Shown: piece after piece, positions 4,318 through 51,837 of the stretch
Numbering within the stretch: the stretch's first letter is position 1
Layout of the letters: the number at the start of each line of letters is the position of its first letter
From: Bryoerythrophyllum caledonicum
Taxonomy: Eukaryota > Streptophyta > Bryopsida > Pottiales > Pottiaceae
Length of the DNA stretch: 64,000 bases
Direction of reading: 5' to 3'
Assembly: GCA_963971425.1 (NCBI GenBank)
Contig: OZ020524.1
Span: forward strand, 14,635,845 to 14,699,844
Made by a program: the position numbers and the translations under genes
Notes under the pieces: model-generated
Databases searched by the model: none
Seen by the model: only the letters and a program-made list of their open reading frames with translations
Told to the model about the DNA's origin: nothing

Positions 4318-4782
4318 TAGTGATGTGGGGAGACTTTGAGCGCTGAGAAGCTTATTTCTGCCTTCGCTTATCTTGTTGTTGTCTTTTGGTGTTCATCATT
4401 TCATCCAAACTTTTGTGGGTGATTCTTCATCCATTGAATTACCGAGAATAAGAACTTTTCTCTTCCCTGATAATAGGATTGAGAAGAGGGTTCATGTCTG
4501 CCATCCAAACATCATGATGGGCTGACATTTCAGAGGCGGATGCACCACTTGAGTCTTTCTATGACCACATTAAGGTAGAGGCACCCAATTCCGATCACTT
4601 AAGCCAGTTGGGGACTCAAATGACATTGTATGTTAAACATTTATGTAGGAAGATGCGGAATTAGGAATGAAACTCAACAAATATTCTTTCAAACATAATC
4701 CCAAAGATTTGGAATTGATATAGAATTTAAAAGCCGAGTGAGTGAGTAAACAAGAGAAGACATGCCATGGATAACCAGCAAC

Positions 4783-4827
4783 GCTATCTTGTGAGCGGTG
4801 AGCGGTGAGCGGCGAGCGGTGAGCATA
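4783..4827. repeat. MULE left terminal inverted repeat with 7-bp tandem repeats
   Basis: GCTATCTTGTGAGC is followed by GGTGAGC/GGCGAGC units. The right end at about 16098-16140 reads the same in reverse complement. In unit 3 the run has two units fewer (about 56117-56148), so the repeat number is unstable. Confidence 0.75.
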
Positions 4828-5150
4828 CAAAACTCTAAAAATTGGAAATAAATCACAGTTTTTTTTTAAAATGTGAAATTGTCGGCAATTTGGGCAAAAC
4901 TATGAATTTTGGAGCATTTTCCTTTTCTAATTGCTAAATTAAGTAAATAGCCTATAACCGTGGTCATTTGTGGAACAATTTTTTTGGACTATTGGGCCTT
5001 CTTCTCTTCTCGTGCTTTGGTTATAACGTACATCTAATATCTTTAAATTTAGAATGATCACATTCAAATCTTGTACATCAGGTTTAAACTTTTTGTTTGG
5101 ACACGACAAAATATATTATTTATAAATATCCACTAATTTGGACACAAGGT

Positions 5151-5275
5151 ATACTGCAGGGTATCACATAGGTATCAAAAGGATATTGCCTAGGTTTATA
5201 ACGGGTATCACATAGGCATTACTTGGCTATCATCCATGTGGCATGTATTACAAGGTCATCACATGGGCAGTAAAT
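5151..5275. repeat. Left subterminal GGTATCAC-type repeats of the MULE
   Basis: Several degenerate copies of GGTATCACATAGG occur in about 120 bp. A related cluster (GGTATCACCTAGGTAT) lies near the other end at about 15668-15775. Subterminal repeats of this kind are often transposase-binding regions; that role is inferred. Confidence 0.5.
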
Positions 5276-5517
5276 GGGATCACTTACATAAATCCAAAGG
5301 GATTTTTGGAAAAGGTTGATAGCCTCCACTTTGAATTCTACTAGTACAACACTCCATTGCGTACGGTAGTATATGTGAAGTACGCCAATTAACAAATCAT
5401 AACAAACTCAATAAGTACATGAACTAAATTCACATCCACGTCTACGACTCTGCAACTCTACATCTTAGCAATCTAAGATCGTAGATCTTTTTGAGAAATA
5501 CGACATCATTGCCTTTT

Positions 5518-18147: not shown

Positions 18148-19161
18148 ATGGCGAGCTCGCGACGTGTGATGCTCATGGTGGTAGCCACTTTGGTGGTGCT
18201 CTTCGTCGGTAATGTCCCATCTCTAGTCACCAGCTCAACTTGCTCCATTTCTTAGATGTAGTGATATATTGTTCGGAAGCGTCGAAGAAACTAGAGATCA
18301 ACGAGGATTGAATTATGATATACAGTTGATGTTCGCGAGCATGTCTGCATGATTGGGTGCATACTGAAGTGATCACGTGACTAGTCTGTTGTTGAGACCC
18401 TAATGTTTGCTGGTCTCATGGTTTTAGGGAACGCCGATGCGTGGGGATGCCCGTCCGGGTACAAGAACTGCGACCCTCACAAGGAAGGCTGCGAGACCTG
18501 CGTCCTGTACGACGTCAAGAACTGCGGCGACTGCGGCAACGTGTGCAAGGTGGAGTGGAAGGGTGGCGAGGTGACGTGCAAGGATGGCCAGTGCAAGCAG
18601 CAGTGCAAGTACGGTTTCGAGTACGACTGGGCGAAGAAATGCTGCGTCCCAAAGTGCAAAGCCGACACCAAGACCGACGTGAACAACTGCGGCAAGTGCG
18701 GCAACGTGTGCAAGGTGGAGTGGAAGGGTGGCGAGGTGACTTGCAAGGATGGCCAGTGCAAGCAGCAGTGCAAGTACGGTTTCGAGTACGACTGGAATAA
18801 GAAATGCTGCGTCCCCAAGTGCAAAGCCGACACCAAGACCGACGTGAACAACTGCGGCAAGTGCGGCAACGTGTGCAAGGTGGAGTGGAAGGGTGGCGAG
18901 GTGACTTGCAAGGATGGCCAGTGCAAGCAGCAGTGCAAGTACGGTTTCGAGTACGACTGGAATAAGAAATGCTGCGTCCCCAAGTGCAAAGCCGACACCA
19001 AGACCGACGTGAACAACTGCGGCAAGTGCGGCAACGTGTGCAAGGTGGAGTGGAAGGGTGGCGAGGTGACGTGCAAGGATGGCCAGTGCAAGCAGCAGTG
19101 CAAGTACGGTTTCGAGTACGACTGGAAGAAGAAATGCTGCGTCCCCAAGAAGAGGTACTGA
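18148..19161 (+). CDS. Secreted cysteine-rich tandem-repeat protein, STIG1-like, 4 repeats (unit 1)
   Basis: Two exons, 18148-18208 and 18428-19161, are joined by a GT-AG intron (G|GTAATG ... TTTTAG) that restores a Gly codon. The predicted protein is 264 residues. Residues 1-25 are a signal peptide with a strongly hydrophobic core, probably cut after NADA. A short cap (WGCPSGYKNCDP...) precedes four 55-residue repeats, each with nine cysteines in the pattern NCGxCGxVC, TCxxGQC, QQC, KCC, PKC. NCGxCGxxC followed by CxxGxC resembles plant STIG1-type and other secreted Cys-rich modules. The repeats are nearly identical in DNA. The protein is probably extracellular; binding partner or activity unknown. 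The ATG inside the intron at 18403 is rejected as start. Confidence 0.85.
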
Positions 19162-34485: not shown

Positions 34486-35898
34486 TTCTTCTATTTGGAT
34501 TGTTTTAAAAAATTTCTATGGGGCCTACTTTTGTTTGATATCATCTTTGTAATTGTTGGAGTCTTTTTGTGCATATGTCGATGTCCCATCTTATATTAAT
34601 TAAAACACATCATTGGAATGATTTAACACATTACCGAACAACTCTATTCCATTATTCGATCCATCCATAAACCAAGGTATTGTTGTGTACTACATGTAGA
34701 CAAAACTGAGTACTGTATGAAATTCAAAAGAAAATTGTAGTAATTTAGAGAATTCACCACGTCTTTTATAGTACGCTGTCCAACATGAACGTGTTTATGT
34801 GCTTCGTACCATAGACAATTGTCGGTATTAAACGCTTTTTATTGAAGTATGTCAAATTCTCAATTAAAGGTGGTTCCTACACCACGGGTATCACCTAGGT
34901 ATGATATGGATATCACCTAGGTATTATATGGATATCGCCATGATATTATATGGGTATCATCTATGTATTGTAAGGGTATGGCCTTCCATTAATCCTTTTA
35001 ATTTTGAAATTATTGGGAGAGTTCCATTCTCAATGAAATAAATACAAATACGACCAATGAGTAATTCAAACCTGTTTCGTTACCCTAACCTAAATACCAA
35101 ACTCATAAGTGCCCCTTTCATTTTGAAGAAAAATTGTTGCTCTAAGACCATCAAGTTGTCAACAATTCAGACTTTAATATGTCCAAATATTGTAGAATTT
35201 TACATGATTTTTTACATATGTCAAGATAGACTAAATATAACCTACGGCCATAGGCGTTGCTTTCAAATTTTGTAAAAAAATTGTGGAAAAAAAAACAATA
35301 AAATTCAGTGCTCACCGCTCGCCGCTCGCCGCTCACGGCTCACAAGATAGCAATCCTGCATGGATAACCAACTCTGGGAGGGTACCCAATGCTGATCGGC
35401 CTTGTTCAACTTTTGAGGTGATGCCACCAATGAAAGGTCAATTGAGGTGGAGCAACCCAAAATTGCATACATCGTGACCCGATGCCAATAATAAGTGGTG
35501 TTCTCAAATTTTGAGTTATTGGTTTTGGGATCACTTCATGCACCATTTCATGCATGTGCCATTTTCATGCACCCTGACATGCACACTCTAGATCGGAATT
35601 GGGTGGCCCATCGGAATTGGGTGCCTCTACCTTAATCTTAAACCAAGAGAAGTCAAAGTCTGCTGATCTACTCAACGCATGGAAGAAAATGAACTAGTTG
35701 ATGGACTTCAAATAATATAATCTTTCAATCCGTGCGGTCAAATTTTATGAAATTTCGTGAGAATATTACTTAATAAGTCTTAATTGAAATCCTACAATAA
35801 AAACTAGAAATGAATTTTTTTTGTTTCCTTCTTCATTTATTCCACTAGAATGCAACAATTTGGAAGTGTTTTTGGTGTGAAACAGATATGGTACCTTA

Positions 35899-36380
35899 GA
35901 GCATCTGCACGCCGCTACAGCATCCCGCAAGATGGGGTGGAATTGCTGTGGCGAGGTGGAGGGGAACCCCCACGGCATGCCCAAGAACGGGGGAGCGGGG
36001 CGGGGTTTCCCCGGGATAGGGCCTCGTCGACAGGGAACTGCGGCAGTTCCCCGGGGCCCCGTTTTAATGCCGGCAGCTGGCCACCCACTCACAGCATGCC
36101 ACGTGGCATGCCGTGAGTGGCCCGGTCTTTTTTTAAAATTTTTAAATTTAATTTTTTTTGAAAACCAAAAAAAGACACTGGAAAAAAATTTAAAAATTTA
36201 AAAATAAAATAAGATTGAGTTTTATTTTAAAAATCTTTTTAAATTTTAAAAAAAAGAATTGGTGCTCGCCGCACCCTGGCCGCGGGTGCGGGGAGGGGAG
36301 GATAACTCCTCCCCCGTCCTCCTCCCATGGGGTAATCTCCACCTGGCGTGGGAGTTTCCCGGCCAGGGGTGGAGATGCTC
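35899..36380. mobile_element. Harbinger/Tourist-type MITE (unit 2, left of LINE)
   Basis: Copy of 16688-17169 with TTA flanks. Confidence 0.8.
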
Positions 36381-37358
36381 TTAGGGGTTAATCTGGAACT
36401 CAAGGCCCTAAAAATTGCAGTTTTTACAGAATGCACATGATTTGCACCAGAGTTGACAATCGGGTACAGCGCCTTAAAATAGACAAGTAAATAGTCAGAC
36501 TCTGAAAAGTTGGGTTGACTAGAGTGCTGATCTGACATGGAATGCCACTCCGGATGGATATGCGGAAAATCGAGGCCGCATCTGGCTGCCATCACTGTCC
36601 GTTGCAGTGTCTTTTATCGACCAAAAGCCACATGAGCTTCAATAATGCTACTTACTGTTGCAAAAAGCTTTCTAGCAATCCAGGATCTACAATACTTAGG
36701 GTCTATTAATGATGTCGTCATAATGATACGCACATTAAACTCTATGGTTGGTACTGTAAATTTGTAATGGGCAGGTTTACTTCAGTTCAAGGACAGGACA
36801 AGTCTGGAAAGAACATCATCCAAGTTTATCTGTCGGTACTAAATCTAGAACCATCATATGCAATGTCTACTGCAAAGCTAGTGCTCGTGTGCTTTGGAAA
36901 ATCGAGACCTAAAAGTCAAACGTGATGAGTTGCTTCGGAATATGAAGCCTCCAGCTGACAGTAGGCCGATCTTCCATCTCGCCACAGTGAATTTGTCTCA
37001 ACCGTCGATAGAAGGTTACACAGGCCCTGATTGGACTAATCTGTACGTTACCTGATCCCGCTCCGAAACCCTGGGTTGACCCCAGTGGTGAATGGAATGG
37101 TCGCTCATACATGCAGAAATTCGGACTTCCGTTGAAGAAATGGCAACCCGAAACGTAAATATCATGACTATTATTTTAGCCTCGGAAAAGGTCAACGGTG
37201 GCTCCTGATAAGCGTGAGTGTGGACCAGTAACAACACGATCACTGATCTATTTAACGTCGACCCCGGTTCATTGCATTCTCATCTCTGCAGCTCTGCAGC
37301 TCAGCAGCATTCCTGCCTCTCCATCTTCACCGGTTACCTGCGTTCCGAACCAGTAGCG

Positions 37359-38207
37359 ATGGCGAGCTCGCGACGTGTGATGCTCATGGTGGTAGCCACT
37401 TTGGTGGTGCTCTTCGTCGGTAATGTCCCATCTCTAGTCACCAGCTCAACTTGCTCCATTTCTTAGATGTAGTGATATATTGTTCGGAAGCGTCGAAGAA
37501 ACTAGAGATCAACGAGGATTGAATTATGATATACAGTTGATGTTCGCGAGCATGTCTGCATGATTGGGTGCATACTGAAGTGATCACGTGACTAGTCTGT
37601 TGTTGAGACCCTAATGTTTGCTGGTCTCATGGTTTTAGGGAACGCCGATGCGTGGGGATGCCCGTCCGGGTACAAGAACTGCGACCCTCACAAGGAAGGC
37701 TGCGAGACCTGCGTCCTGTACGACGTCAAGAACTGCGGCGACTGCGGCAACGTGTGCAAGGTGGAGTGGAAGGGTGGCGAGGTGACGTGCAAGGATGGCC
37801 AGTGCAAGCAGCAGTGCAAGTACGGTTTCGAGTACGACTGGGCGAAGAAATGCTGCGTCCCAAAGTGCAAAGCCGACACCAAGACCGACGTGAACAACTG
37901 CGGCAAGTGCGGCAACGTGTGCAAGGTGGAGTGGAAGGGTGGCGAGGTGACGTGCAAGGATGGCCAGTGCAAGCAGCAGTGCAAGTACGGTTTCGAGTAC
38001 GACTGGAATAAGAAATGCTGCGTCCCCAAGTGCAAAGCCGACACCAAGACCGACGTGAACAACTGCGGCAAGTGCGGCAACGTGTGCAAGGTGGAGTGGA
38101 AGGGTGGCGAGGTGACGTGCAAGGATGGCCAGTGCAAGCAGCAGTGCAAGTACGGTTTCGAGTACGACTGGAAGAAGAAATGCTGCGTCCCCAAGAAGAG
38201 GTACTGA
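37359..38207 (+). CDS. Secreted cysteine-rich tandem-repeat protein, 3 repeats (unit 2, left of LINE)
   Basis: Exons are 37359-37419 and 37639-38207, about 209 residues. Signal peptide, cap and tail are identical to the copy at 18148-19161, but there are only three 55-residue repeats. The middle repeat has the GTGACG codon variant found only in first and last repeats elsewhere, as expected from unequal crossing-over inside the repeats. Confidence 0.85.
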
Positions 38208-38663
38208 AGATCAGAGATCTAACTGCCTGATGAAATCTTGTCATCTGTCCCTCGTGAGTTGTTCCTACCAGTAATGTTTACTTCGTTGTGGAGCTTGGTT
38301 CTGGCGGTCACGCCCAAGTTCGAAAATAGCAGAGCTTCTGATCTTGTTCTGGGAACATCTTGTTTCCACCTCTTCTGCTCAGTGCTCTTGTTCTGGGAAC
38401 ATCTCGTTTCCACCTCTTCTGCTCTTGTTCTGGAAACATCTTGTTTCCACCTTCTGTAGATTATACCACAACAGTGGCGATTGGATGGTCGGAGATGTTT
38501 TCATGTGGTAAACACCTAATGGTTTTCTAGAGAGGACCCTGGGTAAATCACATGGCTTTGTATCTGGAATTGCAAATAAAGAGCGGTGGTGTGTAATTCG
38601 TTGTTTAAGTGCTACATTTGTCAATGTATGATTCCTTCCTTTCATTCTGATCACGTTTTCATT

Positions 38664-39050
38664 AGAAATAGAATTACTAAAAATAGAATTACTAAAAATT
38701 GAAATTCTAATGATAGTAAGAATATATACGAATCTGATTGAAATAAATATCAATATATTTTTTCCGTATACTAGTACGTATCTGTATAAATATCTGTATA
38801 ATGGTACGTATATATATACATATACTGTTACGTATACTAATACAAATACTGATACTGATACTTACACTAATACAAATACTAATATCAATATTGGCCCGTA
38901 TACTAGTACAAATTATAACACGAATACTAACAAGGATACTGATACAAACACCGAGACAAAAACCGAGGCATATACTAATACGAACATACGAATAAATACT
39001 AATATAAAAACAAATAAAAATACATATACACACACAAAGACAACAACACA
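38664..39050 (+). repeat. Low-complexity 5' region of the LINE
   Basis: Degenerate short repeats (AATACAAATACTGATACT and similar) read as runs of Thr-Asn/Asp in the ORF frame. Open frames exist on both strands here, so this part is more likely 5' UTR than protein. Confidence 0.6.
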
Positions 39051-42000
39051 CCATCAACGTAACACATACAAAGAAGAACGCCGGTCTCCAAAGAAGGTCG
39101 GCGGGAATCATAACACATACATAGACATACACACACACAAAAACAAATACATACAATCAAAAATCCACCAAAGTCACATTCAAAAACAAAAAATACTAAA
39201 ACAAAACAAAAATCCCATCTACTACAAACTTCTAATATTAATTGGAGGAGACATGAAGACTTACCCAAGACCCATGCCGAACATATTAAAAAGACACCCC
39301 ACTTCGCACAAAAAGAATGCCAAAACATATTTCATACCAAATACTAATACAAACACCAAAACAAACAATTGTACAAACCACAAAATATATAATAACACCG
39401 CATATGAAAAAAAGGACTTTAAAACCACTTTAAAAACCAACATAAACCCACATACAAATAGTCTTAAACATAACAGTTACATATACACACGGACAAAAAC
39501 AACCAAGATAAAATACAACCAATCATACATACATCCATACACCACTAAAACAAAAACAACCACAAAAAACACATGGACAAATAATAAACTAAAGACAAAA
39601 ACAACTACACCTACTATAAAAATAAATAAACCCACAACTCACACACAAAATACAAACATCCACCTACCCCCAAACCAACAAGCCATTAATAACACAACAA
39701 AGCCTATAAAATACACCACTAAACATATATACCACAAACTTCTACTACTTCTAGGAGGAGACATTGAAACCAACCCGGGACCCATGCCCAATATACTAAA
39801 AAGACATCCTACATCACATAAGAAAAATGCCAAAATCTACTTTATACCTAATACCATAAAACTCCAACCAGAATATGAACACATTGCAAAACCCTTCGCA
39901 CCATTTCTAAAAAACACACACACATTACACCACATACACAACACTTCCCACCCAAACATTGCCCAATACATACAACAAAAAAATACGCATCCACCACCCC
40001 ACATCTTATATGCACTAATAATCACCACTCATCCAAGCATAGATGAATGTAACCAACTTCTAAATCCACAAAATTTGAACACAATTACATGGACTAATTC
40101 ACTCCTACAAACCTTATTAACCTTACAAAACCCACCAGAACGACACATTTACACTCCACACCCCTATACTCAATTCCTAGTAGACAGCCAAAATATTATA
40201 AATCATGAAAACTCAATACATCAAAGACTATACGACTTCTTACATAGTCAAGTCATACTACCCTCAAATGATATAATAAAACTAAAATTCCCTTACCTCC
40301 CTAACAACCTCATAAATGAATCACTAAAATGCCTAGACCCTATACCAGAATACACCCACCCACCCCCACCTCTTCCCTACATCCCTCCTCAAAATCAAAA
40401 CATTAGACCAAACCAAGAAAATACATACATAATCACATGGAATGCCTCCTCACTAAACACTGCCCTCCCTAGCTTACAAACTCTAGTCGCAAACACAGAC
40501 ACACCACCGGCTCTTATAGTTATACAAGAAACAAAACTATCCGCCACAAAATCTACAAAATATATACAAAATATATTTCAAAACTATAAACTCATCTTTA
40601 ACAACACACATGCACTTACAAGATGCATACAACAAAGGAGACCATACACACCGGGCCGCGGTGGCCTCCTTACATTAATACACAAAAAATATACATTCCC
40701 CGGCAACATCAACAAAATCCCTACCCCAATGCACATATCACCATACATTCAAATAATTAAAATCACTAATCACCCACTACAACCGTGGTTAATCTTTCAC
40801 ATGTATATGCCATCCCATCCCGAAGATACTAGATTTCTCTTAGATATACAAAACACTATTACAACCCATATTAATAATCATCCCAATCATACATACCTAT
40901 TATGTGGAGACTTCAATAGAGACATAGCGCTAATTGGCCGCCAAAATAGAAACCATCACACTCCCCCTCAAAACATTGATTACCAATGGCGTCGCTTCAC
41001 AGAAAACTTAAACTTCACCTACATCAATACCGATACTCAATTCTCTAGACAAGGTGGCTACAATTATAGTGATTGGAGTCTAATAGATGGTTTCTATATA
41101 AATACAAACAACAACACACAATACACCTCTACAACAAACAAAGATATTATTCTCAATTCGGACCACTCACCCATACAACTGCACATCCCAAATAACACAC
41201 TAATTAGTAGAACTCCTACAATCCCAAACAAAGACACTATACGCATACTCAACCCCATCCCAAAAACCAATATAGAAAAATTCAACACAAAATTCTTCGA
41301 AGAAAACTCCGTACAAATAGACTACCTCATAAACATTCTTGAAAACAATAACCAATTAACACAAACTCAATGGCAAGAAGCATGCCACTCTCTAGACAAA
41401 CTCATCAATAAAATCTCTGATACACTAGAACAAACTTGTAGAGCACACCCAATACCCCAAATGACAAACAGAACCTCTCAACAAGGCGGGTATCTACCCC
41501 GCAAACTTTCTAAAACTTGGAAACAACACTTAACCACATACCATACCATACGTAAAACCATCAGAATTGTAAAAAACAACCCTCAATGGCGTAACCACCC
41601 CATAAACAACGAACTACTAACTATACAACACACCCAAATCCCTACCCCGCCGCCTCCGGACCTTCCCCACGATACATGGATAAAAGATATCGCGATAATT
41701 GCAAAAAATGCCAACATACAAGCCCGGAAAATAATCACAAAATACGCAAAAGAAAACATTAAAAAAGCCATCTCAAAATATAGACAACTATACGAAATCA
41801 GCCCCAAAAAAATTAACAAAAAAATCTTTAAAAACCTCGAATCCCCACCAATGGATTGTATCAAAGATCAATATAATAATATTCTAACTAGCCCCGAAGA
41901 CATTGCGAATGAAATATTTAACCAACAAACAAAAACCAATAGACCAACAATACTAACATGTAATTACCAGCCACAACATACAATAGAATGCACATGTGCA

Positions 42001-45000
42001 ATACGCCAATACCCTTGGCACGACCTAGACGGATATACCCTTGACAAACGGGGCGAACCAGAAATTCCACTTCATAAATACCTCAACAGAGCCACATACG
42101 ACACATGCCTTCAAAATCTTGGAAATAATAAAGCCCCAGGCCCAGACCGTATACCAAACTCAATACTAAAAAACATGCCTCCAAGATTTCACAAGCTATT
42201 ATTTCTGTTCTTCTCCCACTGTTATAAACAAAAACAGATACCAAACTCATGGAAATTAAGTACAACAATTCTACTATACAAAAAAGGCGACCCGTCCATA
42301 CTACCCAACCATAGACCAATTGCACTAGCTAACACAATATACAAACTCTTTACCAGTACACTCACCTCCATACTATCCTCATACGGTGAAAAATTCAAAA
42401 TCCTACATGATAGTCAAGAAGGATTTAGAGCAGAGAGAAGTACCGCACGACAAATACAAACTATAATAGCCGCACTAGAAGACGCAAAGTTTACTAACCA
42501 AGATATATACATACTATACGTGGACTTCAAAAATGCCTTTGGCTCAATTGACCATGCCCGACTTCTAGCAATAATGTTGGACCTTGGTTACCCAAAAGAT
42601 GCAACTACACTTGTTGGAAACATCTATTCTAAATCAGCTACATGCTATACCGGCGAACACTTTGGGAAAACAAAACCTATACCCATCCAAAGAGGAACTA
42701 TACAAGGGGATACCCTCAGCCCATACCTATTCATCATATTTCTAGAACCACTACTCAGATGGCTAGAAAGAGGAAATTACGGATACACTTTTGGCACATC
42801 ACAGGTCATAATAAACTCTGCCGCATACGCGGATGACCTAGCCACCATAACTAACAAAATCAAATCAATCCAAATACAACTAAACAAAATTGATAGATAT
42901 TGTAAATGGGCCGGTATGGACGTAGGTGTCCCAAAATGTGCCGCTACCGGTTGCCCAAACAAATCCAAATTGAATCCTACCGCTTTCAAAGCCCTAATAC
43001 AAGCCTCGAACATCAATTACCGCAATCAACCGATCCCCATACTACACCAAAATGAACCATACATATACTTAGGCACAAACCTTGTTCCCTCACTAAAATG
43101 GAAAATCCAAATCCACACCACAACGACAAAACTCATCAAACAATGCAAAGAACTAACAACATGCCCAGCCACCATGAAACAAAAAATAAAAATGGTTGAT
43201 ACCGTACTACGCCCAGGTGTGGCATACAGTTTCTACGGTGTACCATACTCTATGCCAGCTATCAAAAAACTTGATAAAAAAATAATAGCCATACAAAAAA
43301 CCATATGCGGATTACCAAAATGTATGTCAAACGCAATAACCCAACTACCACATAACCTATTTGGACTTGAAGCTTTCTCCCTCCAAAACGCATACCTCCG
43401 ATGTATAGGCGAACAACTGCAAAATGCTCTAAACGATAAAGGAAGACTTGGGAAAATATATAATGGATTAACTCACTATGTCCTTGCCCAATATGGTGGC
43501 GCTGAAAACATACCGAGAATTAAAAAAAGTGACTGCATAAGATCACCAATAACACGAACATTCTTCTTATTAAAACATACAGCTAAAGCCCACCTTAAAA
43601 GTACGCTCCCGAACTTCCTCACTAATCCCACAACACTAGAAATACTATGGCGCCAAGAAACATTAAATCATAACACACTCAATGCCCAACTCTCCCAAAA
43701 GCTTCTACAAAAACTCCTCTCAAAAAATATTTTTGAACTAAACCAAATTACCTTACCTAACGGTACACACATCATGAACAATGAGGACTTCAAAACCTAC
43801 CACTTCACCCCATCTAAACTAATAAAGAGTGCCCTAAGTGTTGCTAAACAACTATTTTGCCACATAACATGCCCCACTATATGTCATACTCCTTGCAACA
43901 TACACCCATACTCTCATACACTTAAAGATCCATTCATCACCCTCAACAATAACATCATTCCAAGAAATATTCTCACACCAACCAATCCCCCTAACCCTCC
44001 ACATACATACCACCCCCGCCCCCCAACATACATCCCCAAAAACCCTACCACATACCCCATTAATAATATCATAAACCATAAACATATCCAACACACAGAC
44101 ACAAATAACATACAAAATACCTACACAAAATATCTATGCCAATGGCAACACAATGATAATACATACAATAAATGGCTCCCCCAAAGAGACCTTTTTCCAC
44201 GGCATGACACCAATACCTCCACACATAACACTGAAAAATTAAAACAATACTACCAAAAGATCCAAAACAAAATATACTCAGATATCATCCTTGCCCACCA
44301 TCCACAAGAACAATCCTCAGACTCAAGGTCCGTAACGCCACCCATAATTATCCCACTCTTAAACATCTACACAACAGAATGCAACCCCGAAAATGATATC
44401 CTTACATCCTCAAACACAATTCAAATAGATAACAATCAAGCACATCTATATGAAGAAAACGGCCGACATTTACACACCATACCCATTACCCGGCTCCAAT
44501 GGTTATGGAACCAATATCATACAAAATTACAAACCCCTACAAACATTGAACCAACAACCCAACCCTTTGAAACCGAACTAATATGGCTTTACCAAAGATA
44601 TAAATATCGAATACCAAAAACTGACCCCCTCAAAAATGCGCAATACACAATACCCACCCCCATTTTAGACTCACTAATATCATCCTTTAACATCGAACAC
44701 TCATACTTTTCCTCCCCGATCACATGTCTTACCAAACTAAATAAATTTTACTCACCGTATGAAAGAGACAAAATATTTGGATCCCTAGGCAAGGCCTTTG
44801 AACACAAATGGATCGGAAATGGAATAGCTCACCCTCACAACGAGAAAGACATAGAACAAGCCATACATTGGGCTAGACTTGCCGCCAAACACGATCCAAA
44901 TAACACAAAAACAATCATCGTCACACCGAACAATAATTGGTACCAAAACAACAACCAACATTCAAACCCATTCCCAGATTCCCACATCATTGCATTATTC

Positions 45001-46071
45001 GAAGCAGACACAATACCATACGAAGAACCTAATATCCCACCCGAGCTAAAAAAACCCCGAATAGAGCCATCTACATTACAAATACTATGCGTCCATCATC
45101 AAAATCAAAACCTGGGCTTCCTAGAACAACTTGCGGAACTTACCTCCATAACAGACAATCTAGACATACAACGACCATACACAAAACCGGCCCCACCAAC
45201 ACCCATACAAACCCCCGTAAACAAAAGTAAAAATTGGTCAAAATTAAACTATGACAACAACACATTAAACTACTCCGTCATACCTCCCCCTCTCCCAGAC
45301 TACCCAACTCATACCACACCAAAATTTAACCCCGCATACAGTTATTACACCGACGGCTCCTTTAAACCACCGGAACAAATTAGCCCGGGCTCTTGGCGGA
45401 GAGAAAAAGCTGGCTATGGCATATATAATTCTACCAAAGAAATTAAACTAGCCAAAAGACTCCATGGACTACAAAATATCCTTAGAGCAGAACTCATGGC
45501 CATTCACAAAACACTACAAATCATCACAACAAAATACAAAAATGAACCTGCACATATATTCACCGATTGTATAAATGCACTCTACCTACTAAACACTCAA
45601 ATAACACACCCAACCCTTCACAACAGTCATCCCGACCAAACCATACTAACATCAATGGTACAAATGTTACAAAAACGTATACAAATCACAACCCTTCACA
45701 AAGTCAGAGCCCATGCCAACATTGATGGCAACGAACAAGCAGACAAACTTGCAAAAGAAGGCCGAGAAAAAACACACAAAAACGCCATAGACCCTCACGA
45801 ACATGCTCATGCCACCCCATACTACTTTCAAAAAGAAGACTGGCCTTCCAAAGAAGATACCCCCGACAAAGGCCCAATTAGATTTCTGGGCAAATATCTC
45901 AAAAAACAAGACCTCTACAACAACCTGGATACAATTTCAGAAAATATTCCTAACATAGAAAAATGGACTAACAATAACGACATAGACAATGAACTCTCTA
46001 CAAACTTTTGGAAAAACCCCATCATCTCGGACTCACAAATAACGTGCCTCATCAAATTCCGTACGGGTTAG
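38710..46071 (+). CDS. LINE polyprotein: 2A, APE endonuclease, reverse transcriptase, RNase H
   Basis: The open frame is 2453 codons; its first 150 or so codons are low complexity, so the real start is probably later. In ORF numbering: degenerate 2A motif at 181-188; intact DIETNPGP at 351-358. APE-type endonuclease spans about 570-830, with N578 (ITWN), E607 (IQETK), GDFN around D734 and SDH at 817-819. Reverse transcriptase spans about 1130-1460, with D1272 in 'VDFKNAFGSID' and YADD at 1373-1376. RNase H spans about 2210-2360, with D2215, E2261, D2286 and D2345. It would nick target DNA and copy the element RNA in place. The frame ends at TAG 46069-46071 and continues in the same frame at 46075. 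Confidence 0.85.
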   Translation: MIVRIYTNLIEININIFFPYTSTYLYKYLYNGTYIYTYTVTYTNTNTDTDTYTNTNTNINIGPYTSTNYNTNTNKDTDTNTETKTEAYTNTNIRINTNIKTNKNTYTHTKTTTHHQRNTYKEERRSPKKVGGNHNTYIDIHTHKNKYIQSKIHQSHIQKQKILKQNKNPIYYKLLILIGGDMKTYPRPMPNILKRHPTSHKKNAKTYFIPNTNTNTKTNNCTNHKIYNNTAYEKKDFKTTLKTNINPHTNSLKHNSYIYTRTKTTKIKYNQSYIHPYTTKTKTTTKNTWTNNKLKTKTTTPTIKINKPTTHTQNTNIHLPPNQQAINNTTKPIKYTTKHIYHKLLLLLGGDIETNPGPMPNILKRHPTSHKKNAKIYFIPNTIKLQPEYEHIAKPFAPFLKNTHTLHHIHNTSHPNIAQYIQQKNTHPPPHILYALIITTHPSIDECNQLLNPQNLNTITWTNSLLQTLLTLQNPPERHIYTPHPYTQFLVDSQNIINHENSIHQRLYDFLHSQVILPSNDIIKLKFPYLPNNLINESLKCLDPIPEYTHPPPPLPYIPPQNQNIRPNQENTYIITWNASSLNTALPSLQTLVANTDTPPALIVIQETKLSATKSTKYIQNIFQNYKLIFNNTHALTRCIQQRRPYTPGRGGLLTLIHKKYTFPGNINKIPTPMHISPYIQIIKITNHPLQPWLIFHMYMPSHPEDTRFLLDIQNTITTHINNHPNHTYLLCGDFNRDIALIGRQNRNHHTPPQNIDYQWRRFTENLNFTYINTDTQFSRQGGYNYSDWSLIDGFYINTNNNTQYTSTTNKDIILNSDHSPIQLHIPNNTLISRTPTIPNKDTIRILNPIPKTNIEKFNTKFFEENSVQIDYLINILENNNQLTQTQWQEACHSLDKLINKISDTLEQTCRAHPIPQMTNRTSQQGGYLPRKLSKTWKQHLTTYHTIRKTIRIVKNNPQWRNHPINNELLTIQHTQIPTPPPPDLPHDTWIKDIAIIAKNANIQARKIITKYAKENIKKAISKYRQLYEISPKKINKKIFKNLESPPMDCIKDQYNNILTSPEDIANEIFNQQTKTNRPTILTCNYQPQHTIECTCAIRQYPWHDLDGYTLDKRGEPEIPLHKYLNRATYDTCLQNLGNNKAPGPDRIPNSILKNMPPRFHKLLFLFFSHCYKQKQIPNSWKLSTTILLYKKGDPSILPNHRPIALANTIYKLFTSTLTSILSSYGEKFKILHDSQEGFRAERSTARQIQTIIAALEDAKFTNQDIYILYVDFKNAFGSIDHARLLAIMLDLGYPKDATTLVGNIYSKSATCYTGEHFGKTKPIPIQRGTIQGDTLSPYLFIIFLEPLLRWLERGNYGYTFGTSQVIINSAAYADDLATITNKIKSIQIQLNKIDRYCKWAGMDVGVPKCAATGCPNKSKLNPTAFKALIQASNINYRNQPIPILHQNEPYIYLGTNLVPSLKWKIQIHTTTTKLIKQCKELTTCPATMKQKIKMVDTVLRPGVAYSFYGVPYSMPAIKKLDKKIIAIQKTICGLPKCMSNAITQLPHNLFGLEAFSLQNAYLRCIGEQLQNALNDKGRLGKIYNGLTHYVLAQYGGAENIPRIKKSDCIRSPITRTFFLLKHTAKAHLKSTLPNFLTNPTTLEILWRQETLNHNTLNAQLSQKLLQKLLSKNIFELNQITLPNGTHIMNNEDFKTYHFTPSKLIKSALSVAKQLFCHITCPTICHTPCNIHPYSHTLKDPFITLNNNIIPRNILTPTNPPNPPHTYHPRPPTYIPKNPTTYPINNIINHKHIQHTDTNNIQNTYTKYLCQWQHNDNTYNKWLPQRDLFPRHDTNTSTHNTEKLKQYYQKIQNKIYSDIILAHHPQEQSSDSRSVTPPIIIPLLNIYTTECNPENDILTSSNTIQIDNNQAHLYEENGRHLHTIPITRLQWLWNQYHTKLQTPTNIEPTTQPFETELIWLYQRYKYRIPKTDPLKNAQYTIPTPILDSLISSFNIEHSYFSSPITCLTKLNKFYSPYERDKIFGSLGKAFEHKWIGNGIAHPHNEKDIEQAIHWARLAAKHDPNNTKTIIVTPNNNWYQNNNQHSNPFPDSHIIALFEADTIPYEEPNIPPELKKPRIEPSTLQILCVHHQNQNLGFLEQLAELTSITDNLDIQRPYTKPAPPTPIQTPVNKSKNWSKLNYDNNTLNYSVIPPPLPDYPTHTTPKFNPAYSYYTDGSFKPPEQISPGSWRREKAGYGIYNSTKEIKLAKRLHGLQNILRAELMAIHKTLQIITTKYKNEPAHIFTDCINALYLLNTQITHPTLHNSHPDQTILTSMVQMLQKRIQITTLHKVRAHANIDGNEQADKLAKEGREKTHKNAIDPHEHAHATPYYFQKEDWPSKEDTPDKGPIRFLGKYLKKQDLYNNLDTISENIPNIEKWTNNNDIDNELSTNFWKNPIISDSQITCLIKFRTG
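39250..39273 (+). other. Degenerate 2A-like motif, upstream copy
   Basis: Reads DMKTYPRP after KLLILIGG. The surrounding 33 or so residues (KLL...GGD...MPNILKRHPTSHKKNAK) match the intact 2A copy 510 bp downstream. The Asn and Gly of the NPGP core are replaced, so skipping activity is not expected. Confidence 0.75.
39760..39783 (+). other. 2A-type ribosome-skipping motif DIETNPGP
   Basis: The sequence LLLLLGGDIETNPGP matches the 2A consensus D(V/I)ExNPGP, which makes ribosomes skip the Gly-Pro bond during translation. The preceding Leu run is hydrophobic, as in 2A sequences reported at the N-terminus of some non-LTR retrotransposon proteins, where they can also act as signal sequences. The predicted downstream product starts with Pro before MPNILKRHP. 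Activity is inferred from the motif. Confidence 0.85.
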
Positions 46072-46074
46072 TAC

Positions 46075-46806
46075 ATGGGAAACGCTCGCAAACAACTCTT
46101 CTTTGGAATAGAAAGGTTCCCATCCATAACATGCCCCATATGCCCCTCAACGGACCCCGACACATGGCTTCATGTGCTACTCAAATGCCAAAACCACCAC
46201 ATACACTCCCTAATTGTTAAAAGACATAACAAAGCGGTATGGGAAGTCCAAAAACTAATCACCTCCTACAATAAATCGAGATGTTTCATACTTATGAACG
46301 CCGGCACTTTTAATAGCAATCCACAAGAAAACACGGTTCCCCCATGGCTACTTCCATGCTCATGTATGACCCAAAGATGTCATTGCAACGCTAGGCTCAA
46401 ACCGGACATTCTTTGTGTCAAAGGTTTACCATACAACGACCCACCACCCGAGAACATCAACCAAGACTACACCATTCAATTCATCGAATTTACATATTGC
46501 AACGATAGATTCTCCCCGGAAACAATACAAAACAAAATAGATAAATACCAACCCCTCATAGACGACATCATTGCCCTCGGCTGGAATGTGGACCCCCTTA
46601 TTGTTATCACATCCGGCGCTCGTGCCACCACCTTTATCCCATCTATGAAAACTCTCGAAGATACCTTCAAGATACCCATTGATACAATTAAAACTACCTT
46701 TAAAAATATCAACACCATCGCTATTCAACATGCCATGTCTATTTTACTGCATAAACGCAAAATCGAAAACAACCAAGTCCTTCCTGATAGGCAAGACCCC
46801 CCTTAG
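46075..46806 (+). CDS. LINE C-terminal part: CCHC knuckle and restriction-like endonuclease
   Basis: In the same frame as the polyprotein, separated by one TAG. The knuckle is C-x2-C-x9-H-x4-C (46132-46188, CPICPSTDPDTWLHVLLKC). It is followed by a basic and Cys-rich stretch (CSCMTQRCHCNARLKPD). The endonuclease core is KPD (Asp at 46405) ... IEFTY (Glu at 46486) ... KIDKY near 46537-46548, ending in 'VDPLIVITSGARA'. The same order, knuckle then PD..(D/E), is known from R2/CRE-type and Dualen endonucleases that cut target DNA. The usual Lys of (D/E)xK is Thr here. Whether this part is translated depends on read-through of the TAG or an internal start at 46075. Confidence 0.75.
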   Translation: MGNARKQLFFGIERFPSITCPICPSTDPDTWLHVLLKCQNHHIHSLIVKRHNKAVWEVQKLITSYNKSRCFILMNAGTFNSNPQENTVPPWLLPCSCMTQRCHCNARLKPDILCVKGLPYNDPPPENINQDYTIQFIEFTYCNDRFSPETIQNKIDKYQPLIDDIIALGWNVDPLIVITSGARATTFIPSMKTLEDTFKIPIDTIKTTFKNINTIAIQHAMSILLHKRKIENNQVLPDRQDPP

Positions 46807-47018
46807 GAACTTTGCCACTCTGTCTCTTCCTGATTGACTGCCTGTTTGGTTTTGCTTTTTGTTGATTAGTTAGTTTGGTCGTGGTTGATCGTTGTTGGTT
46901 GGTTACTGGCTACTCGTTACATAGTGTCTACCCTCGAAAGGGGGAAGTAGTTCCAGTTCGCTAATTCCTTGTCCGGTGGGCATGGTCTTAGCAATGGAAC
47001 GAACAAACACTTTATTCA

Positions 47019-47043
47019 CGCCGGTTCCCTTCGGGTACCGGCG
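47019..47043 (+). other. 3'-terminal hairpin of the LINE
   Basis: CGCCGGTTCCC and GGGTACCGGCG form an 11-bp stem with one mismatch around a TTC loop, directly before the terminal repeats. 3'-end hairpins are recognition sites for the reverse transcriptase in several LINE families; that role is inferred here. Confidence 0.65.
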
Positions 47044-47056
47044 TTCTTCTTCTTCT
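47044..47056 (+). repeat. (TTC)n tail of the LINE
   Basis: Four TTC units form the 3' end in place of a poly(A) tail, and unit sequence resumes at 47057. Short 3' microsatellite tails are typical of several LINE clades. Confidence 0.7.
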
Positions 47057-47464
47057 GGGTATCATCTATGTATTGTAAGGGTATGGCCTTCCATTAATCC
47101 TTTTAATTTTGAAATTATTGGGAGAGTTCCATTCTCAATGAAATAAATACAAATACGACCAATGAGTAATTCAAACCTGTTTCGTTACCCTAACCTAAAT
47201 ACCAAACTCATAAGTGCCCCTTTCATTTTGAAGAAAAATTGTTGCTCTAAGACCATCAAGTTGTCAACAATTCAGACTTTAATATGTCCAAATATTGTAG
47301 AATTTTACATGATTTTTTACATATGTCAAGATAGACTAAATATAACCTACGGCCATAGGCGTTGCTTTCAAATTTTGTAAAAAAATTGTGGAAAAAAAAA
47401 CAATAAAATTCAGTGCTCACCGCTCGCCGCTCGCCGCTCACGGCTCACAAGATAGCAATCCTGC
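47057..47464. mobile_element. MULE right-end fragment beyond the LINE
   Basis: The rightmost 408 bp of the MULE follows directly on the LINE tail, starting inside the subterminal GGTATCA repeats and ending at the 7-bp-repeat terminus and the ATGGATAACCA target copy. Confidence 0.8.
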
Positions 47465-48003
47465 ATGGATAACCAACTCTGGGAGGGTACCCAATGCTGA
47501 TCGGCCTTGTTCAACTTTTGAGGTGATGCCACCAATGAAAGGTCAATTGAGGTGGAGCAACCCAAAATTGCATACATCGTGACCCGATGCCAATAATAAG
47601 TGGTGTTCTCAAATTTTGAGTTATTGGTTTTGGGATCACTTCATGCACCATTTCATGCATGTGCCATTTTCATGCACCCTGACATGCACACTCTAGATCG
47701 GAATTGGGTGGCCCATCGGAATTGGGTGCCTCTACCTTAATCTTAAACCAAGAGAAGTCAAAGTCTGCTGATCTACTCAACGCATGGAAGAAAATGAACT
47801 AGTTGATGGACTTCAAATAATATAATCTTTCAATCCGTGCGGTCAAATTTTATGAAATTTCGTGAGAATATTACTTAATAAGTCTTAATTGAAATCCTAC
47901 AATAAAAACTAGAAATGAATTTTTTTTGTTTCCTTCTTCATTTATTCCACTAGAATGCAACAATTTGGAAGTGTTTTTGGTGTGAAACAGATATGGTACC
48001 TTA

Positions 48004-48485
48004 GAGCATCTGCACGCCGCTATAGCATCCCGCAAGATGGGGTGGAATTGCTGTGGCGAGGTGGAGGGGAACCCCCACGGCATGCCCAAGAACGGGGGAG
48101 CGGGGCGGGGTTTCCCCGGGATAGGGCCTCGTCGACAGGGAACTGCGGCAGTTCCCCGGGGCCCCGTTTTAATGCCGGCAGCTGGCCACCCACTCACAGC
48201 ATGCCACGTGGCATGCCGTGAGTGGCCCGGTCTTTTTTTAAAATTTTTAAATTTAATTTTTTTTGAAAACCAAAAAAAGACACTGGAAAAAAATTTAAAA
48301 ATTTAAAAATAAAATAAGATTGAGTTTTATTTTAAAAATCTTTTTAAATTTTAAAAAAAAGAATTGGTGCTCGCCGCACCCTGGCCGCGGGTGCGGGGAG
48401 GGGAGGATAACTCCTCCCCTGTCCTCCTCCCATGGGGTAATCTCCACCTGGCGTGGGAGTTTCCCGGCCAGGGGTGGAGATGCTC
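48004..48485. mobile_element. Harbinger/Tourist-type MITE (right of LINE)
   Basis: Third copy, with private substitutions near 48023 and 48420 relative to the other two. Confidence 0.8.
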
Positions 48486-49463
48486 TTAGGGGTTAATCTG
48501 GAACTCAAGGCCCTAAAAATTGCAGTTTTTACAGAATGCACATGATTTGCACCAGAGTTGACAATCGGGTACAGCGCCTTAAAATAGACAAGTAAATAGT
48601 CAGACTCTGAAAAGTTGGGTTGACTAGAGTGCTGATCTGACATGGAATGCCACTCCGGATGGATATGCGGAAAATCGAGGCCGCATCTGGCTGCCATCAC
48701 TGTCCGTTGCAGTGTCTTTTATCGACCAAAAGCCACATGAGCTTCAATAATGCTACTTACTGTTGCAAAAAGCTTTCTAGCAATCCAGGATCTACAATAC
48801 TTAGGGTCTATTAATGATGTCGTCATAATGATACGCACATTAAACTCTATGGTTGGTACTGTAAATTTGTAATGGGCAGGTTTACTTCAGTTCAAGGACA
48901 GGACAAGTCTGGAAAGAACATCATCCAAGTTTATCTGTCGGTACTAAATCTAGAACCATCATATGCAATGTCTACTGCAAAGCTAGTGCTCGTGTGCTTT
49001 GGAAAATCGAGACCTAAAAGTCAAACGTGATGAGTTGCTTCGGAATATGAAGCCTCCAGCTGACAGTAGGCCGATCTTCCATCTCGCCACAGTGAATTTG
49101 TCTCAACCGTCGATAGAAGGTTACACAGGCCCTGATTGGACTAATCTGTACGTTACCTGATCCCGCTCCGAAACCCTGGGTTGACCCCAGTGGTGAATGG
49201 AATGGTCGCTCATACATGCAGAAATTCGGACTTCCGTTGAAGAAATGGCAACCCGAAACGTAAATATCATGACTATTATTTTAGCCTCGGAAAAGGTCAA
49301 CGGTGGCTCCTGATAAGCGTGAGTGTGGACCAGTAACAACACGATCACTGATCTATTTAACGTCGACCCCGGTTCATTGCATTCTCATCTCTGCAGCTCT
49401 GCAGCTCAGCAGCATTCCTGCCTCTCCATCTTCACCGGTTACCTGCGTTCCGAACCAGTAGCG

Positions 49464-50642
49464 ATGGCGAGCTCGCGACGTGTGATGCTCATGGTGGTAG
49501 CCACTTTGGTGGTGCTCTTCGTCGGTAATGTCCCATCTCTAGTCACCAGCTCAACTTGCTCCATTTCTTAGATGTAGTGATATATTGTTCGGAAGCGTCG
49601 AAGAAACTAGAGATCAACGAGGATTGAATTATGATATACAGTTGATGTTCGCGAGCATGTCTGCATGATTGGGTGCATACTGAAGTGATCACGTGACTAG
49701 TCTGTTGTTGAGACCCTAATGTTTGCTGGTCTCATGGTTTTAGGGAACGCCGATGCGTGGGGATGCCCGTCCGGGTACAAGAACTGCGACCCTCACAAGG
49801 AAGGCTGCGAGACCTGCGTCCTGTACGACGTCAAGAACTGCGGCGACTGCGGCAACGTGTGCAAGGTGGAGTGGAAGGGTGGCGAGGTGACGTGCAAGGA
49901 TGGCCAGTGCAAGCAGCAGTGCAAGTACGGTTTCGAGTACGACTATGCGAAGAAATGCTGCGTCCCAAAGTGCAAAGCCGACACCAAGACCGACGTGAAC
50001 AACTGCGGCAAGTGCGGCAACGTGTGCAAGGTGGAGTGGAAGGGTGGCGAGGTGACTTGCAAGGATGGCCAGTGCAAGCAGCAGTGCAAGTACGGTTTCG
50101 AGTACGACTGGAATAAGAAATGCTGCGTCCCCAAGTGCAAAGCCGACACCAAGACCGACGTGAACAACTGCGGCAAGTGCGGCAACGTGTGCAAGGTGGA
50201 GTGGAAGGGTGGCGAGGTGACTTGCAAGGATGGCCAGTGCAAGCAGCAGTGCAAGTACGGTTTCGAGTACGACTGGAATAAGAAATGCTGCGTCCCCAAG
50301 TGCAAAGCCGACACCAAGACCGACGTGAACAACTGCGGCAAGTGCGGCAACGTGTGCAAGGTGGAGTGGAAGGGTGGCGAGGTGACTTGCAAGGATGGCC
50401 AGTGCAAGCAGCAGTGCAAGTACGGTTTCGAGTACGACTGGAATAAGAAATGCTGCGTCCCCAAGTGCAAAGCCGACACCAAGACCGACGTGAACAACTG
50501 CGGCAAGTGCGGCAACGTGTGCAAGGTGGAGTGGAAGGGTGGCGAGGTGACGTGCAAGGATGGCCAGTGCAAGCAGCAGTGCAAGTACGGTTTCGAGTAC
50601 GACTGGAAGAAGAAATGCTGCGTCCCCAAGAAGAGGTACTGA
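49464..50642 (+). CDS. Secreted cysteine-rich tandem-repeat protein, 5 repeats (right of LINE)
   Basis: Exons are 49464-49524 and 49744-50642, about 319 residues. Signal peptide and cap are as in the other copies. There are five 55-residue repeats, and the first has DYAKK where the others have DWAKK. Intron, TATA-like box and 3' UTR are retained, so it is potentially expressed. Confidence 0.85.
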
Positions 50643-51837
50643 AGATCAGAGATCTAACTGCCTGATGAAATCTTGTCATCTGTCCCTCGTGAGTTGTTCC
50701 TACCAGTAATGTTTACTTCGTTGTGGAGCTTGGTTCTGGCGGTCACGCCCAAGTTCGAAAATAGCAGAGCTTCTGATCTTGTTCTGGGAACATCTTGTTT
50801 CCACCTCTTCTGCTCAGTGCTCTTGTTCTGGGAACATCTCGTTTCCACCTCTTCTGCTCTTGTTCTGGAAACATCTTGTTTCCACCTTCTGTAGATTATA
50901 CCACAACAGTGGCGATTGGATGGTCGGAGATGTTTTCATGTGGTAAACACCTAATGGTTTTCTAGAGAGGACCCTGGGTAAATCACATGGCTTTGTATCT
51001 GGAATTGCAAATAAAGAGCGGTGGTGTGTAATTCGTTGTTTAAGTGCTACATTTGTCAATGTATGATTCCTTCCTTTCATTCTGATCACGTTTTCATTTC
51101 AAGAGAATTCATTACCTATGTCACCTTCTTAAATCACTCATCAGATTGTGTTTTTCTGGATTTATTGATTTTTATGTCCCACATGATGTTTGTTTGGATG
51201 GGTATTATATCCTTTGTAGAAGGTGTCACATCCTCACATTGATTTCCTATCAGAGTATTCGTAAGATGGTATTCGTGAGATGGGAAAACGTCATGACTGT
51301 GCCAACTTCGAGCCTGTTTGTACCCTGTTCATAAACAAGTTGGCTGGTTGAAAAGTTGGATCGCTTCTTGTGTATGTTTTGGTATTTGTTGAACTCTTGG
51401 GGCAAACCATGCGTTACTTCAGGGCCAAGTTGAACAGTAACTTATGGAGTTTTGTGGTCACCCTCTCATGGCTTGCGTACTGAAATGCGAAGCCACAGCC
51501 ATCAGATGGATATCCTCAGAATATTCAACAGTTGCCATTGCTGAAGTCCAAGCTGTCGTTACCTCAGATAATACTTCGAGGATGGTTGGGTCCCGGCAAA
51601 AGCGATGCCAAAGAGAATGAAATTACAGGTAGACAATTCAGTTGAAAAGAATTTTATTTTATTTTTTTGACACAAGCAAAGGTAACCTTTACTGCTTGTT
51701 GAAAAGAAATTCAGAAGTCCTCTTGAGTGCATAATACCGAAATCTCCCGACAAACTGTTTCCATGCCAGGCTGAGAAGTGTGTGGACCACCGAGTGATGT
51801 TTATAAACTACATAAATAGACAAGAATTCGAAATGGG

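Follow-up and report, generated by a model that had tools for sequence, protein, structure and literature searches.

A LINE of probable Dualen/RandI-like architecture in Bryoerythrophyllum caledonicum, with a PCIF1-like domain between reverse transcriptase and RNase H

Long interspersed nuclear elements (LINEs) normally use either an APE-type endonuclease or a restriction-like endonuclease (RLE). The subject here is a LINE in Bryoerythrophyllum caledonicum that carries the first together with a candidate for the second. The whole stretch of DNA analysed, called the window, comprises 64 kb of contig OZ020524.1 within a 437-Mb assembly of 894 contigs. The LINE occupies window positions 38664-47056 on the + strand, between host sequence that ends at 38663 and resumes at 47057. 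Host repeat units back both the left junction (38663/38664) and the right junction (47056/47057), and the boundaries proposed in a first-pass annotation, made from the letters alone, are nearly exact. Alignments of 20 sibling copies, fetched from the same assembly, stop at window positions 47053-47057. At the left end the first 15 nt (38664-38678) are filler that resembles adjoining element sequence, and the sibling alignment covers 38679-47056. The coding strand of the element is rich in A and C. A 2453-aa frame begins at 38710 and is closed by a TAG (46069-46071), after which the same frame goes on through 46072-46806. The element contains the following features (L051 is a relative from a sediment sample; dN/dS is the ratio of nonsynonymous to synonymous substitution rates):

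38664..47056, + strand: LINE insertion, 5'-truncated (junctions and sibling alignments)
39250..39273, + strand: degenerate copy of 2A, DMKTYPRP, within a duplicated module (sequence)
39760..39783, + strand: intact 2A-like ribosome-skipping motif, DIETNPGP (motif only)
40432..41172, + strand: APE-type endonuclease (Pfam Exo_endo_phos, 5e-6; match 40432-40953, end placed by SDH)
42289..43074, + strand: reverse transcriptase (RT) with YADD (Pfam RVT_1, 1.4e-25)
44065..44196, + strand: chromodomain-like stretch, YLCQW...NKWLP (Pfam Chromo, 0.012; weak, below cut-off)
44530..44934, + strand: PCIF1-like (cap m6Am methyltransferase) domain (PF12237, PCIF1_WW, 3.5e-10; 40.2 bits, cut-off 31.1)
45337..45765, + strand: RNase H with D-E-D-H-D motifs (Pfam, 3e-12)
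46069..46071, + strand: in-frame TAG stop, after RNase H and before CCHC (also in 1 of 20 siblings)
46132..46188, + strand: CCHC zinc knuckle, C-x2-C-x9-H-x4-C (motif, census)
46222..46803, + strand: RLE-like domain (motifs; homology to L051; dN/dS 0.07-0.11)
46222-46227, 46399-46407, 46486-46488 and 46534-46548, + strand: RLE-like motifs RH, KPD, E (of IEF) and KIDKY
47044..47056, + strand: (TTC)n-type tail at the 3' end (number of repeats differs between copies)

Within the 2453-aa frame, the matches to Exo_endo_phos, RVT_1, RNase_H and PCIF1_WW each exceed the Pfam cut-off. The catalytic motifs of APE (N, E, GDFN, LID, and SDH) are intact. Those that the first-pass annotation had named when it placed an APE before the RT are all there: its residue numbers N578 and E607 are exact, GDFN lies at 733, and SDH lies at 817. 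Its 2A motif and its RNase H are likewise present, as are, after RNase H, the CCHC knuckle and the PD..E core at the positions listed. DIETNPGP agrees with the D-x-E-x-N-P-G-P consensus of 2A peptides, from which ribosome skipping is predicted. In profile searches of solved structures in PDB, the RT finds R2 (5.7e-29, the best solved relative) and L1 (1.3e-18). Four features had escaped the annotation: the in-frame stop, the truncated 5' end, the PCIF1-like domain, and the chromodomain, if that is real.

This arrangement resembles that of Dualen (RandI), which codes for both APE and RLE (parts of PMC4640811 and PMC3636483) and from which RNase H has also been reported (PMC4640811). An APE located N-terminal to the RT and an RNase H are both present in the window LINE by Pfam, and APE is joined in one element by an RLE-like domain, recognized here by its motifs and by homology to L051. 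The window LINE also ends, as do green-algal RandI elements (8 of 8 families in the table of PMC3747384), in a short non-A 3' repeat, in this case (TTC)n. The PCIF1-like domain, the chromodomain-like stretch, and the 2A motif are differences, going unmentioned in those parts of the Dualen descriptions that were compared. The host differs as well, being apparently a streptophyte. No Pfam match to a cysteine protease is seen up to an E-value of 1 in two window frames or in one upstream open reading frame (ORF1, from copy L014). Such a domain is reportedly part of the 2005 description of Dualen. R2 is similar in having the best solved RT relatives and a CCHC followed by an RLE with K-x2-K-Y (as excerpted from PMC5678591). 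It differs in that RT identity is about 25% and that no fixed target is seen in the flanks of the window LINE. R2 is not known to carry an APE, an RNase H or a PCIF1-like domain. The element is read, with a probability of roughly three in four, as a non-LTR (long terminal repeat) retrotransposon of Dualen/RandI-like architecture that has recently been active in this genome. It works like Dualen/RandI and is most probably related to it, a likeness drawn from published descriptions rather than from an aligned Dualen sequence. Of the first-pass claim of a Dualen-like LINE with two endonucleases and RNase H, the APE and RNase H parts stand by Pfam, and the C-terminal part stands by motifs and the L051 homology, but not by a match to an RLE profile.

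Both endonucleases, together with the other domains, are under purifying selection between subfamilies. A motif census covered the window copy, the 20 siblings, and two further copies, L039 and L040, plus L033-L038 where these reach the motif; L001-L008 were omitted as duplicates. APE motifs are present in 22-23 of 23 copies (the residue after QETKL is S or T), YADD in 21 of 23, KPD in 27 of 28, FIEF and K-x2-K-Y in all 23, and the FGS of the PCIF1-like domain in 28 of 29. Among the window copy, L039, and L040, counting only comparisons with at least 40 shared codons and assigning no value when dS is saturated, dN/dS is 0.08-0.14 for APE, 0.07 for RT, 0.09-0.26 for the chromodomain-like region, 0.11-0.18 for the PCIF1-like domain, 0.10-0.13 for RNase H, 0.06-0.12 for CCHC, and 0.07-0.11 for the RLE core. 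As a control, sense-shifted frames (+1 and +2) give 0.78-4.18. Other values weigh on the other side. Low ratios (0.09-0.44) also come from the antisense frame with the same third codon positions, which in one pair nearly equals the RLE coding frame (0.09 vs 0.08). The near-identical pairs L009-L018 and L022-L018 have higher values, for example 0.31-0.36 in the RT and, for the thumb region, 0.75-1.52, a pattern expected of copies that decay once inserted. The idea that the C-terminal frame is spurious was rejected, since its motifs are conserved and the frame is under selection.

Relatives of the family are present on contigs of metagenome-assembled genomes (MAGs) from sediment. A scan of prokaryote assemblies with an RT alignment gave 44 pattern matches, of which two were confirmed: L045, whose RT is 38% identical to that of the window family, and L046, at 36%. 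A second contig in the MAG of L046, L051, contains a 3038-aa frame. Across the three relatives, RT identity to the window family is 36-38%. The MAGs that hold L045, L046, and L051 are labelled Clostridiales and Mollicutes, and eukaryotic contamination is likely. L046 has APE and RT, and L045 has RT and a PCIF1_WW match (9.4e-6, 25.8 bits) that is below the curated cut-off. Pfam finds APE (2.5e-11), RT (5.9e-24), and RNase H (1.4e-15) in L051, which also contains a CCHC and RPD...ELK. Alone among these relatives, L051 has the full order of the window family, APE, RT, PCIF1-like, RNase H, CCHC, RLE-like; thus, the PCIF1-containing architecture looks like a trait of the lineage. The PCIF1-like region of L051 aligns with that of the moss family in hhalign (92.3%, E 5.5e-7). 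Against this, the region scores 0.00069 when scanned alone, which is below the curated cut-off, and in a scan of the whole protein it is not among the matches at E up to 1. The sediment LINEs differ from the window family in the canonical RPD...ELK of L051 and, in L045 and L051, in an HPIY motif discussed below and a C4HC3 segment that resembles a PHD finger (Pfam PHD 0.03 and 0.02, below cut-off). In a ten-row RT tree, drawn midpoint-rooted and with a program warning that long branches meet, the window family groups with the three relatives in a clade (100/99) that is separate from R2 and L1. Among viral contigs, the RT, PCIF1-like, and A7 alignments found no relative; the A5 alignment found only L044, with an RT 73% identical to L1 chain 8c8j, and the C-terminal piece gave only two 63-nt matches, taken as chance.

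The C-terminal domain is the part of the proposed pair of endonucleases for which the evidence is divided. In L051 the aligned core reads RPD...VELKY, the canonical PD-(D/E)XK order, and hhalign joins it to the RLE-like domain of the window at 97.4% (E 1.5e-11). The window domain thus has a homologue that shows a textbook PD-(D/E)XK signature. Judged from the motifs, the moss family seems to have moved the RLE lysine, as R2 has: its core reads E-F-T, with no K at the (D/E)XK position and a displaced KIDKY downstream, and the available text of PMC5678591 places the catalytic lysine of LINE RLEs in a K-x2-K-Y helix. Several results count against a nuclease. Besides the missing lysine, the GXW motif of R2 RLEs is not seen in the window's C-terminal domain, and PDB searches with this domain give no link to a solved RLE (best 0.21 in one, none up to 5 in another, best 0.69 in a third; taken as chance). 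Pfam returns only sub-threshold matches for the C-terminal piece, DUF3501 at 0.11 among them. Of the profile check that the first-pass annotation had proposed, Exo_endo_phos, RVT_1, and RNase_H were found above cut-off, but the C-terminal domain is without a match to a known RLE.

The CCHC and PD...E region may instead have become a DNA- or RNA-binding module, with APE doing all of the cutting as in an ordinary APE LINE with RNase H. The empty (D/E)XK position and the lack of a match to RLE profiles would suit such a module, as would the 13- and 11-bp target-site duplications (TSDs) of full-length copies and the absence of an evident fixed target in the flanks seen. Nevertheless, this explanation is unlikely, for it leaves unexplained why KPD is kept in 27 of 28 copies and the glutamate and K-x2-K-Y in 23 of 23, with K-x2-K-Y corresponding to the helix that holds the catalytic lysine of LINE RLEs (PMC5678591, in part), why L051 has a canonical RPD...ELK, and why the RLE core has a dN/dS close to that of the RT. 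On balance, the RLE-like domain is somewhat more likely than not to be an active nuclease.

The most unusual part of the element is the PCIF1-like domain between RT and RNase H. The Pfam name PCIF1_WW refers to a WW domain; the LINE match covers the region at 44530-44934 instead. A search of the assembly with PF12237 gave 150 scored loci from 2614 first-look candidates, with all 150 above the Pfam cut-off and a 3087-aa open frame at 33 of them. With these 150 loci, and with the 40 RT-probe copies described below, the find is far from chance. A profile of seven family members, down to 55% identity, finds PCIF1 in PDB (6irx, 0.0014; 6irv, 0.1), and the addition of two relatives leaves the match at 0.0037 and 0.14. 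In the alignment, F-S-S-P-x-T-C of the LINE lies on F-A-S-P-L-N-C of PCIF1, and D-x-x-F-G-S lies on D-x-x-F-G-S. The NPPF of PCIF1 is aligned in 6irv with HPHN (window 44830-44841). NPPF is present in none of 29 copies, which have HPHN (25), HPHT (2), HPHS (1) or HPYN (1), and L045 and L051 have HPIY at this site; H-P is therefore invariant across both lineages. A caution is that the sole alignment to reach NPPF is the weaker match, 6irv, at E 0.1. The domain shares homology with PCIF1/CAPAM by Pfam and PDB profile, and differs from it in having NPPF replaced and in sitting inside a retrotransposon polyprotein. In the literature on PCIF1 and retrotransposons, no description of such a domain in a LINE was found among the matches listed. 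Because NPPF is lost, the domain is most likely, as predicted from its motifs, a module that binds RNA or the vicinity of the cap, and not a standard N6-adenosine methyltransferase.

It is also conceivable, although doubtful, that the domain has remained a methyltransferase whose chemistry is altered, and that it modifies the RNA of the element or of the host for protection or as a packaging mark. The invariant H-P, the aromatic residue that the relatives keep at the NPPF site (HPIY), and the conservation of the domain (FGS in 28 of 29 copies, dN/dS 0.11-0.18) are what one might expect of an enzyme. However, the asparagine is aligned to histidine in all 29 copies of the moss family and in L045 and L051, and disruption of NPPF reduces the activity of PCIF1 itself (according to the portions of PMC6318281 consulted). 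A binding module remains the preferred assignment.

The family is recently active in this genome. A 1.5-kb RT probe gave 40 scored copies of 3107 candidates in the assembly, all matching at 98-100% DNA identity; the length of the (TTC)n tail differs between the 20 siblings. Six of the 20 (L009, L012, L018, L021, L022, and L024) have a single frame, up to 2739 aa long and without a stop, in which exact-string tags mark APE, RT, RNase H, CCHC, and RLE; three of the six also include the 2A motif. L039 belongs to the 33 loci that have the 3087-aa frame. Its sequence stays open for 2467 aa of the part fetched, beginning in the 2A region and reaching the RLE-like end, and carries 2A, APE, RT, RNase H, CCHC, and RLE. 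In L040, whose listed frame has 2881 aa, the same extent is open across 2464 aa. The first-pass claim that a single element codes for everything thus holds for siblings in one frame but not for the window copy, whose frame is split by the TAG at 46069-46071. This stop was at first a candidate for a change private to the window copy, which was rejected: sibling L028 has the same stop, and the other 19 of 20 have a sense codon. The window copy is also 5'-truncated, with full-length relatives L013 and L014 spanning about 12.2 kb. In L009 and L010, homology nearly fills the fetched 14.9 kb, and no 5' end is reached. ORF1 lies upstream of ORF2 in a different frame, overlapping it by 22-25 nt; it is 66% identical over 493 aa between two subfamilies, and Pfam finds nothing above cut-off in the one from L014. 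In one frame, the family ORF2 contains 2A, APE, RT, PCIF1-like, RNase H, CCHC, and RLE-like regions. That all of this is a dead relic, its apparent domain set a chimera of decayed elements, is very improbable, since the window stop, the truncated 5' end, and the absence of all five tags in one frame from 14 of 20 siblings favor it only for the window copy and other broken copies, and the siblings with a single open frame and the 3087-aa frame at 33 loci contradict it for the family.

Several further observations concern the copies themselves. Between L018 and L009, dS is 0.66 in APE but 0.02 in RT; subfamilies therefore seem to be chimeras, which suggests template switching, or else recombination among LINE lineages. 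In the long subfamily, the 5' regions of L009 and L010 (about 4701-5437 of the joined stretches) contain a tandem repeat whose period is about 123 bp. The 3' flank of L039 (7655-7733) resembles 5'-side sequence of L024, 90% over 80 nt, and is also found, inverted, 3' of L021. In L015 (1-480) the 5' end adjoins a segment in reverse orientation that is related to the 5' repeats of the element, as in 5' inversion. Some copies lie about 10 kb apart, and tandem copies are possible. Contigs C590, C821, and C894 of the assembly each carry rbcL, with two slightly different scores, so that more than one plastid type or organism is possibly present. A contig of the assembly has rbcL with accD downstream of it and atpB upstream on the opposite strand, a gene order that points to a streptophyte.

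In the window, the LINE is flanked by two copies of host sequence:

34952..38663, + strand: left copy of a direct duplication, 3.7 kb long, that flanks the LINE (host repeat units)
47057..51098, + strand: right copy of this duplication, longer by 330 nt, equal to two 165-bp units

This 3.7-kb direct duplication of the host array looks like either a giant TSD or a tandem duplication linked to the insertion. It is atypical, because full-length L013 and L014 have TSDs of only 13 and 11 bp, respectively, and a 3.7-kb target duplication as the family norm was rejected on these grounds. About 20 extra bases separate the 13-bp TSD of L013 from the shared 5' end. The flanks seen reveal no evident fixed insertion target. 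The host array, with a unit of about 19 kb, contains a repeated cysteine-rich gene (18403-19161, 37614-38207, and 49719-50642), and the number of 165-bp units varies. The third copy of this gene has a weak resemblance to Stig1 (23.8 bits, cut-off 24.1); its other matches look like repeat artefacts.

A possible cycle for an intact element can be outlined. Skipping at 2A would free the enzyme part from an N-terminal leader, and the polyprotein would bind its own mRNA. One endonuclease, probably APE, would make the first nick for target-primed reverse transcription, the RLE-like domain would make or position the second nick, and RNase H would clear the template RNA. Two further roles are less secure: the PCIF1-like domain may bind RNA near the cap, and the chromodomain-like stretch, if real, could steer integration to marked chromatin. 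For the latter, the Chromo match (15.9 bits, cut-off 25.1) has an E-value of 0.012 with the excised region and 0.08 in the whole protein; it recurs in 6 of 7 family members at E up to 1, and the PDB match is to CBX4 at 0.25. The resemblance is suggestive and sub-threshold. Between this stretch and the corresponding region of the relatives hhalign finds no link, and the proposal that their pre-PHD segment is the same chromodomain was not upheld (hhalign probability 0.2).

A wider evolutionary history can be drawn from these parts, although it is speculative and rather improbable as a whole. In it, a deep lineage of dual-endonuclease LINEs would have captured a PCIF1-family cap-methyltransferase domain before its lines in streptophytes and in the sediment eukaryotes separated, and NPPF would have been rebuilt, to the HPHN type in one line and to HPIY in the other. 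The domain would recognize the capped 5' end of the element's own mRNA, leading to selection in cis for full-length RNA, and the target would be chosen by chromatin readers, chromodomain-like in the moss family and PHD-like in the sediment relatives.

A young, high-copy family with both nucleases under purifying selection makes the sharing of first- and second-strand cleavage between two endonucleases testable. In addition, retrotransposition would be tied to the mRNA cap if a LINE carries a conserved PCIF1-derived domain.

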